From contig NZ_SOSC01000007.1 of assembly GCF_005049285.1 (NCBI RefSeq), forward strand, positions 62,001 to 126,000: a DNA stretch of 64,000 nucleotides. The letters are read 5' to 3'. The notes under the pieces were generated by a model. That model saw only the letters and a program-made list of their open reading frames with translations, did not search any database and was not told the origin of the DNA. Source of the stretch: Halorientalis salina. GTDB taxonomy: Archaea > Halobacteriota > Halobacteria > Halobacteriales > Haloarculaceae. How positions within the stretch are numbered: position 1 is the first letter of the stretch; each line of letters begins with the position of its first letter. The position numbers were made by a program, and so were the translations under genes. This document shows positions 16,824 through 36,353 of the stretch, in pieces.

Positions 16824-17288
16824 TTTCTGCCCGAAGTAAGCGTATATCGTGTACGGATGAGGGATCGGGAGAAACGTGACGGAGTTGGATTGGGATTGCG
16901 CTTTATTGACGCGGGTTTCGAGGAAGCGGCGTCGGTGGCTATCGACATATCGTCGATATACCTGACGGAGCATTTAGACGACCTTTTGACGATGTGAAAG
17001 TTGAATCTTTAGGATTGCGACAAGAACAGCGGAATCACGGACCGAATGGCTCCGGTGAGTCCTTGAGAGCTACAAATTCACCCAGTGGTGTACCCGGGAA
17101 ACAGACGCCCTCAAAGTCACACTTTCTCTGATTCGCTGTGGAGGGGAAGTATACCCCACTTCGGACTGGCGCCGAAACTATTATTCCATAACTTAATTTA
17201 CTGTATTAATATATTTGAGCTTATAGTTCGTACACGCAGTGAGCAGCCGAGCACCGAGCATCCGTGGCGCAACGCGCCGCGGTTCACC

Positions 17289-17306
17289 GTCAGTGCATGC
17301 ACTGAC
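17289..17306. repeat. Perfect 18-bp palindrome
   Basis: GTCAGTGCATGCACTGAC reads identically on both strands. It could be a dimeric-protein binding site, or a long hairpin with no loop; it sits within the hairpin array. Confidence 0.7.
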
Positions 17307-17333
17307 GAGCCTGCGTTCCTGTGGGGCACTCAT

Positions 17334-17347
17334 GGGCCTCCGGCCCG
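17334..17347. repeat. Hairpin repeat GGGCC-TCC-GGCCC, copy 1
   Basis: The 14 bases GGGCCTCCGGCCCG recur at 17483-17496; each forms a 5-7 bp stem with a TCC loop. Confidence 0.7.
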
Positions 17348-17354
17348 CTCGCTC

Positions 17355-17370
17355 GTGGCGGCTCCGCCAC
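17355..17370. repeat. Hairpin GTGGCGG-CT-CCGCCAC
   Basis: Perfect 7-bp stem with a 2-base loop, part of the array upstream of priL. Confidence 0.7.
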
Positions 17371-17397
17371 CACGTGACTCACCCCGACACTGCCGGA

Positions 17398-17412
17398 GCG
17401 GGCGAAGCCCGC
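17398..17412. repeat. Hairpin GCGGGC-GAA-GCCCGC
   Basis: Perfect 6-bp stem with GAA loop; ten bases later comes a T6 tract (17422-17427), so it may also serve as a terminator stem. Confidence 0.65.
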
Positions 17413-17421
17413 GGAGGCAGC

Positions 17422-17427
17422 CTTTTT
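17422..17427 (+). terminator. T6 tract after GC-rich hairpins
   Basis: CCTTTTTTAG follows the hairpins of the candidate RNA. Archaeal termination typically needs only a T-rich stretch. A second T6 tract occurs at about 17437-17442. Confidence 0.4.
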
Positions 17428-17450
17428 TAGCGTAGATTTTTTGGAGTCAT

Positions 17451-17469
17451 GCGGGACCGAAGGTCCCGC
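17451..17469. repeat. Hairpin GCGGGACC-GAA-GGTCCCGC
   Basis: Perfect 8-bp stem with GAA loop, the strongest single hairpin of the array. Confidence 0.7.
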
Positions 17470-17480
17470 TGACCATGCGA

Positions 17481-17497
17481 ACGGGCCTCCGGCCCGT
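17481..17497. repeat. Hairpin repeat ACGGGCC-TCC-GGCCCGT, copy 2
   Basis: Perfect 7-bp stem with TCC loop; its core 14 bases are identical to the copy at 17334-17347. Confidence 0.7.
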
Positions 17498-17508
17498 GAG
17501 CAGAGAGT

Positions 17509-17525
17509 GGTGCGCTTCGCGCACC
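17509..17525. repeat. Hairpin GGTGCGC-TTC-GCGCACC
   Basis: Perfect 7-bp stem with TTC loop, the last of the array, about 30 bases before the priL TATA box. Confidence 0.7.
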
Positions 17526-17557
17526 CGACGAGAAAAAGGTACTCGAACACCGCCGGG

Positions 17558-35666: not shown

Positions 35667-36353
35667 ATGACACTCGTAGCCTTCGATTTCGACGGGACGC
35701 TGTCCGATTCGGAGATGACCGTGCTGCTGGGCGAGCAGTGCGGCGTCGCGGGCGACATGGAACGGATCACGGAGCGGGCGATGAACGACGAGATCGAGTA
35801 CGCCGAGAGCCTGCGCCAGCGCTGTGCCCTCCTGGAGGGACTCTCCCAGGAAAAGGCCGAGGACGCCTTCGACGGGGTCGTCCTCCGGGAGGACGCCGCC
35901 ATGGTCATCGACAACCTCAACGAGGCGGGACATCACACCGCCATCCTGACCGGCGGCTTCGAGCGCGGCGTCGAACGCGCCCTGGAGAAAGCCGGCGTCT
36001 CCGTCGACTCCATCGTCGCCAACCGACTGCCCATCGAGGACGGGGAAAGCGAGGCGCAAGGCGCCTCGGAAAACACGAGCGGGCAGCGCCCGCGAGTGCT
36101 CACCGGCGAGGTCGAGGGGCCGCTCATCGAGGGGACCAAAGACGACGCGCTCGAAGACCTCGCGGGGACCGTCGGCGTCGACATGGCCGACACCGTGGCG
36201 GTCGGCGACGGGGCCAACGACCTCCCGATGCTCGAAGTCGCCGGGCTGTCGATCGGGTTCGATCCGAAACCGGCCGTCGAGCCCTCGTGTGACACCGTCG
36301 TCCTCTCGATGGCGGAACTCCAGGGCGTGCTGGAAGCCGAGCGGGTTCTGTAA
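35667..36353 (+). CDS. serB: Phosphoserine phosphatase
   Basis: HAD-family phosphatase performing the last step of serine synthesis. It has 228 residues; motif I DFDGTLSDSE (nucleophile Asp), motif II ILTGG, motif III Lys in EGTKDDAL, motif IV GDGANDLPML. The region between LPIEDG and LTGEVEGPL contains an extra segment of about 18 residues (GESEAQGASENTSGQRPRV) encoded by two perfect hairpins (36051-36067, 36079-36093); it lies between motifs II and III, an exposed loop in HAD proteins. I infer insertion of a palindromic element in frame. The start codon is preceded by another hairpin. SerA is 1.3 kb away on the other strand. Confidence 0.9.
   Translation: MTLVAFDFDGTLSDSEMTVLLGEQCGVAGDMERITERAMNDEIEYAESLRQRCALLEGLSQEKAEDAFDGVVLREDAAMVIDNLNEAGHHTAILTGGFERGVERALEKAGVSVDSIVANRLPIEDGESEAQGASENTSGQRPRVLTGEVEGPLIEGTKDDALEDLAGTVGVDMADTVAVGDGANDLPMLEVAGLSIGFDPKPAVEPSCDTVVLSMAELQGVLEAERVL
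36051..36067. repeat. Hairpin GAGGCGC-AAG-GCGCCTC inside serB
   Basis: Perfect 7-bp stem with a 3-base loop within the probable in-frame insert of serB. Confidence 0.7.
36079..36093. repeat. Hairpin GCGGGC-AGC-GCCCGC inside serB
   Basis: Perfect 6-bp stem with AGC loop; its stem GCGGGC/GCCCGC is the same as that of the hairpin at 17398-17412. Confidence 0.7.

Follow-up and report, generated by a model that had tools for sequence, protein, structure and literature searches.

A candidate haloarchaeal family of short protein-coding palindromic elements, with one copy in serB of Halorientalis salina

Protein-coding palindromes are known from Rickettsia, Wolbachia and one methanogen. The Rickettsia palindromic elements (RPEs) and their Wolbachia counterparts are dispersed palindromic sequences, which occur between genes and in frame in housekeeping genes, and are tolerated in loops. 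The accessible part of PMC2229807 gives the length of RPEs as 105–146 bp. The methanogen palindromes are archaeal sequences fused into protein genes, and were the subject of a 2005 study cited in the accessible parts of PMC2229807 and PMC2996958. REP elements and REPINs, associated with RAYT, are short hairpins present in many copies, some of them within genes, where they can recur at nearly the same position, as in recB (excerpts of PMC3733652). The PATEs and small mobile repeats of Haloquadratum walsbyi are haloarchaeal, short and palindromic, and lack a transposase gene. PARCEL coding repeats are palindromic protein-coding sequences spread between organisms; however, they are intragenic tandem amphipathic repeats, and the portion of PMC2996958 available to us states that there were none in the archaeal genomes then available.

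Here, we present the analysis of a 64,000-nucleotide stretch of the Halorientalis salina genome (the window), in which the phosphoserine phosphatase gene serB carries an extra palindromic segment. A sequence-only reading had interpreted the segment as a protein-coding mobile palindrome similar in kind to RPEs, and our results support this on a larger scale. We propose, with a probability of about 0.8, that haloarchaea harbour a family of short palindromic elements that are protein-coding and non-autonomous, and that the segment is one of its copies. The likeness to RPEs fits, as the copies are palindromic, dispersed, inserted in frame into housekeeping genes and also located between genes. Both features tested for the general kind of protein-coding palindromic elements were found, namely dispersed palindromic DNA and in-frame insertion at sites that are empty in relatives. 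The element is best read as resembling RPEs in behaviour, not in size: it is about 51 nt long, contains two separate short hairpins and belongs to other organisms, and this description sets it apart from the RPEs of 105–146 bp. Full-text searches of the literature listed no description of protein-coding palindromes of haloarchaea, which is weak evidence, as subscription papers lie mostly outside its coverage.

An in-frame palindromic insert in serB

The features of the locus are as follows.
35667..36353, + strand: serB, phosphoserine phosphatase (HAD-IB), 228 aa, host gene of the insert (translation, NCBIfam, haloarchaeal orthologues)
36048..36098, + strand: putative protein-coding palindromic element, 51 nt, encoding SEAQGASENTSGQRPRV (covariance model R1, alignment with insert-free SerB)
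36050..36068, + strand: hairpin 1, CGAGGCGC-AAG-GCGCCTCG, with 8-bp arms and a 3-nt loop (sequence, folding)
36079..36093, + strand: hairpin 2, GCGGGC-AGC-GCCCGC, with 6-bp arms and an AGC loop (sequence, folding)

The window SerB is matched by the NCBIfam model TIGR00338 for serB with an E-value of 6e-42 and 143.7 bits, just under the cut-off of 144.15, and by the HAD-IB model TIGR01488 above its cut-off. By its SerB, the source genome (G000) groups with Halorientalis. The element DNA, AGCGAGGCGCAAGGCGCCTCGGAAAACACGAGCGGGCAGCGCCCGCGAGTG, is preceded by GGGGAA and followed by CTCACC, and adds 17 codons in frame, which correspond to SerB residues 128–144. The two adjacent hairpins noticed in the sequence-only reading are both perfect at the positions listed above. 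The segment is extra and in frame, as had been claimed, but its extent is 17 residues and 51 nt, rather than 18 residues with an end at 36096. Covariance model R1, which includes the window copy among its nine members, scores this copy at 76 bits (E 3e-15). Folded as single-stranded DNA, the 51 nt reach -20.1 kcal/mol versus -11.1 ± 1.9 kcal/mol in shuffles (z -4.9), and folding as RNA gives a z of -4.6; none of 200 shuffles folds equally well. Hairpins of similar size are abundant in the 64-kb window, with 341 stem and loop combinations at a stem of at least 6 and a loop of 2–7. Therefore, the rarity of the hairpins is no argument for an element; the argument lies in the family and in the indel.

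We compared 84 distinct SerB proteins, composed of the genomes of the genus and the best 80 of 190 relatives by similarity, a choice that biases the sample to the query. Of the six search peptides, one overlapped the insert. Nine of the 84 carry an insert at one site, which is otherwise nearly free of gaps in the alignment. The carriers are the window, Halorussus aquaticus (L006), Haloarcula pellucida (L007), Natrinema thermotolerans (L008), Halorussus litoreus (L010) and four metagenome-assembled genomes (L009, L011, L013, L018). Salinibaculum litoreum (L014) retains a remnant. The remaining 74 SerB have at most three extra residues at the site, in agreement with the shortness of the haloarchaeal region between the IEDG-like turn and LTG stated in the sequence-only reading. 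The segment is patchy and belongs to a minority, not to most, of these SerB proteins. None of the other seven genomes of the genus has it; their serB matches span 627–633 nt versus 684 nt in the window. The Natrinema insert is 48 nt long, and the SerB carrying it is 97% identical to an insert-free Natrinema SerB.

A less biased survey of 292 genomes of the class gave a serB match in 291. Among the approximately 150 matches listed, eight spanned 666–684 nt. Reading of these spans identified four new carriers (L339, L340, L342, L344) and an eroded copy (L346), together with the window and the inserts already seen in L008 and L010.

In an AlphaFold2 model calculated with 53 SerB sequences, the mean pLDDT is 80.5. 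Residues 121–155, which hold the insert, are below 50, and the other ten-residue blocks have values of 70–98, apart from one border block at 59. As judged from the model, the insert is a disordered surface loop, and it is probably neutral for the enzyme. Its open frame, and the strict use of that frame described below, point to translation.

Dispersed copies in haloarchaeal genomes

Model R1 has 51 positions and was built from nine serB inserts, so that it favours the serB subfamily. With 150 candidates scored per genome, six genomes gave at least 263 matches at E ≤ 10: at least 39 in G000, 57 in L006, 42 in L007, 36 in L008, 59 in L010 and 30 in Halorientalis marina, which has dispersed copies though its serB lacks the insert. 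At E ≤ 0.001, six further haloarchaeal genomes contained 103 matches (28, 24, 21, 13, 16 and 1), and two genomes of other classes contained none. Copies were present in all 12 haloarchaeal genomes tried.

A strict pattern, GAGGCGC-N3-GCGCCTCGGA-N(2-8)-CGAGCGG, occurs in 128 of 292 Halobacteria genomes and in 44 of the 77 genera sampled, and its reversed control gave zero in every row. In a sample of the phylum, the pattern was found in 23 of 294 genomes, all of them among its 53 haloarchaea. It was found in none of the 241 non-haloarchaeal genomes, many of which are smaller and may differ in GC content; this distribution sets the element apart, by description, from the palindromes of one methanogen as outlined in the accessible sources. 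Carriage by viruses was rejected, as no viral contig contained the strict pattern.

The element consists, in order, of (A/G/C)GCG, a 6-nt arm, a 3-nt loop, the complementary 6-nt arm, CGGA, 1 to 5 nt, (C)GAGCGG, a variable centre, CCGCGAG and 2 nt. The flanks are constant, and the arms vary and covary. Model-defined copies are mostly 45–58 nt long; their lengths modulo 3 (47, 12 and 7 for coding copies; 24, 9 and 14 for the rest) are blurred by the setting of ends by the model and were not used. The spacer lengths are 5 and 2 in 86 of 102 matches, which suggests triplets, but a spacer of 4 is also seen, together with a second hairpin that compensates for it. The copies have no recognisable target duplication. 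Because the copies are dispersed and patchy, the element appears to be, or to have been, mobile.

Covariation was assessed on 81 distinct copies in an alignment fitted to R1, which favours pairing. In this alignment, 95% of cells pair, and both sides have changed in 11 of 13 pairs. Cells with double changes number 92, versus 17.9 in shuffles and at most 7 in slid structures.

The complete chromosome of G170 contains 28 R1 matches, 20 on the plus strand and eight on the minus strand, the latter only at about 4.47–1.5 Mb. Such a skew possibly reflects a strand or replichore bias, or simply the orientation of genes.

An intergenic array of multiple hairpins with T-runs (GAGCGGGCGAAGCCCGCGGAGGC...TTTTTT) is located at 17260–17530 of the window, and look-alikes are present in the same genome at C1:52798, C2:28591 and C18:35661. 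The GCGGGC...GCCCGC stem that the sequence-only reading had traced to this array is indeed present at 17398–17412. Its kinship to the element found no support, as R1 has no match there at E ≤ 0.01. The array was rejected as a copy of the element, and is at most a distant relative.

Copies inside genes

We read 113 of the 263 R1 matches, mostly the better-scoring ones, and called coding copies by a codon-usage heuristic on the 210-nt flanks alone. An uninterrupted frame encloses 66 copies; 26 are located at the edge of a gene, 19 are between genes and two are unclear. All 66 coding copies are in the sense orientation, 62 of them in frame 0, and three of the other four encode a portion of the frame-0 peptide. 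When the five serB copies, which are members of the model, are set aside, 61 of 108 copies are coding and all 61 are sense. Random positions in the same loci were coding in 2095 of 4000 cases, with 1083 sense, 1012 antisense and the six frames equal. In a second set of 30 loci from six other genomes, which contains another serB copy (L364), 25 are coding, all sense and 24 in frame 0.

In the copies read, frame 0 encodes the peptide (S/G/R)-E-A-x-x-A-S-(E/D)-x-(S/A)-S-G-x-x-P-R-x. Stop codons do not explain the sense bias, because the antisense frames have fewer stops (1–4 of 113) than the sense frames. The mean charge is -0.4 in frame 0 and +2.1 to +4.0 in the other five frames. We infer selection for an acid-compatible, hydrophilic loop; since frame 0 alone lacks a net positive charge, insertions in other frames or orientations would have been removed by selection.

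The claim that related hairpins would be found at indel positions of other coding regions was borne out, as two-hairpin copies are located at such positions in many genes. NCBIfam identifies TrpB and enolase above the cut-off, and NadB below it (E 6e-120). Further hosts, which we take from sequence reading to be tRNA synthetase, MoeA, a helicase and others, were also recorded. Filled and empty sites were compared for TrpB, NadB and enolase in 30 family loci each. TrpB has an insert in three of 30, and TrpB inserts of three genera have one common arm type. For NadB, the window genome and G170 (L271) have an insert, and L272, L284 and L293 have longer unclear loops. Enolase carries an insert in H. 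marina, none in 30 homologues, and short extra segments in four (L302, L303, L305, L310). Some of the short loops at element sites, in enolase, NadB and SerB (L346, L014), look like eroded copies, suggesting decay to ordinary linkers.

Same-site pairs were observed in the same genes of distant genomes (L126/L369, L169/L385, L223/L392), and two more same-site insertions are common to two Halorussus. Within each pair the arm type is the same, and two of the three pairs have a type other than the most frequent one; this pattern resembles that of serB. Other arm types (AGGGAC or CGGAGC, with spacer GACCNTTCGA or similar) occur in L133, L168, L373, L383, L387 and L388, often in S/E/D-rich, repeat-bearing stretches, and are perhaps tandem or nested insertions.

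Origin and spread of the serB copies

On a SerB tree built with the insert columns left out, the nine carriers require seven changes; the mean of shuffles is 8.6, and 27 of 500 shuffles are as low. Well-supported branches force at least six changes. A single clade of all serB carriers was rejected on these counts, and 0% of 200 bootstrap trees unite them. The inserts of the window, L007, L009, L010, L011 and L013 are nearest to other serB inserts, with L006 tied, and those of L008 and L018 have their nearest match elsewhere. The window insert scores 82 alignment points against serB inserts versus 51 against copies elsewhere in its own genome. Because serB inserts resemble each other most, locus-bound descent fits the former carriers better than repeated insertion. 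At least some carriers may share one locus-bound copy, as judged from sequence similarity, and others resemble independent insertions at this serB site.

The arms of the serB inserts are more conserved than their surroundings. In seven of the nine inserts, compared between clades at third positions of unchanged residues, the arms are identical at 135 of 135 positions, versus 47 of 66 outside the arms; synonymous sites of the flanks agree at 0.66, about the same divergence as the insert outside the arms. Arm changes number 0 of 26 in three Haloarcula-clade pairs and 0 of 22 in three Natrinema pairs. Within carrier clades, the arms have 0 to 1 differences, and third positions of the flanks agree at 67–78% (six pairs) or 91% (one close pair). 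Conserved arms may be either a hallmark of separate family insertions or held after insertion.

It is also possible, though somewhat improbable in our view, that one ancient serB insertion was passed on by vertical descent and lost many times, precisely or by erosion, with no later mobility there, the arms being kept by constraint or arm-to-arm templated correction (quasipalindrome template switching). The likeness of same-site inserts across clades, the identity of the arms (135/135 versus 47/66), the unchanged arms within clades next to flanks agreeing at 67–74% (91% in one close pair), the remnants in L014 and L346, and the single arm type of the TrpB inserts of three genera all speak for such a history. 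It would, however, demand many losses that each restore almost the same length, given the seven tree changes with at least six forced, and the inserts of Natrinema (48 nt), L018, L344 and the consensus-like L340 appear to stem from distinct insertion events at this site. Arm conservation does not separate old from repeated insertion, as it is a family hallmark too. Spread of the insert as a serB allele, by short-tract homologous recombination among DNA-exchanging haloarchaea, would likewise place similar inserts at the same site in distant clades, and CTCACC follows the site in seven of nine carriers versus 33 of 74 non-carriers, a weak signal. We nevertheless regard it as doubtful, as the flanks have no clear signature: third positions of the nearest ten codons agree at 0.55 on the left and 0.71 on the right in carriers of different clades versus 0.52 and 0.66 in non-carriers. 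A gene-conversion patch around the insert was rejected on the same third positions.

The family could also be an IS200/605-derived miniature, similar to REP/REPIN or PATE, moved by a resident Y1 transposase, which amounts to our main reading with the mover named. The available part of PMC3119063, on Haloquadratum PATEs, reports for this group palindromic ends that lack a target duplication, and Y1 transposases are present in five of six genomes tested. This identification is unlikely, since the most match-rich genome (G011, at least 59) has no detected Y1 transposase, a weak point in a draft assembly, and the 51 nt lack the GTAG or CGTC tag that excerpts of PMC3733652 give for bacterial REPs; the lack of the tag distinguishes the element from REP/RAYT systems. 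PATEs, whose palindromes the same part of PMC3119063 relates to IS605 ends without mention of in-frame use in host proteins, differ from the element by description. A resident IS200/605 as the necessary mover was rejected, weakly, on the copy-rich draft genome without its transposase. A functional RNA or DNA hairpin, such as a regulatory or protein-binding site located in coding sequence by chance, would agree with the stable, covarying stems, but the hits in unrelated genes, the empty sites of close relatives and a strict reading frame that suggests translation make it very improbable. The window contains many hairpins with 6-bp stems, and an ordinary loop indel could be palindromic by chance in GC-rich DNA; we give this next to no credence and rejected it, as the family is genome-wide, with E-values down to 3e-12 outside serB and zero matches of the reversed pattern.

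Returning to a family of non-autonomous elements, we suggest that the hairpins could be recognised as single-stranded DNA by an enzyme acting in trans; alternatively, copies might be carried with homologous DNA between species. Copies in the wrong frame or orientation would be removed by selection in the acidic proteins of haloarchaea, and retained copies would be neutral, disordered surface loops, a state supported for SerB by the structure model. Once in a gene, a copy would be inherited with its arms still paired and would erode slowly to an ordinary linker, as the remnants seen may illustrate. More tentatively, we speculate that this is a class-wide selfish element living mainly as translated sequence, which, in the form of locus-bound types such as those of serB and trpB, entered a few preferred loop sites of core genes and re-entered them in lineages far apart, with its arms kept perfect by arm-to-arm templated correction.

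As a separate coding-palindrome family recorded in 44 of 77 haloarchaeal genera, the element offers alleles with and without an insert for well-studied enzymes of organisms that can be cultured. The family makes testable how such sequences enter genes, why one frame is retained, and how copies are converted to ordinary protein linkers. It would account for lineage-specific indels (SEA..ASED.SG..PR peptides) in haloarchaeal proteins, and bears on their annotation and on indel-based phylogeny.
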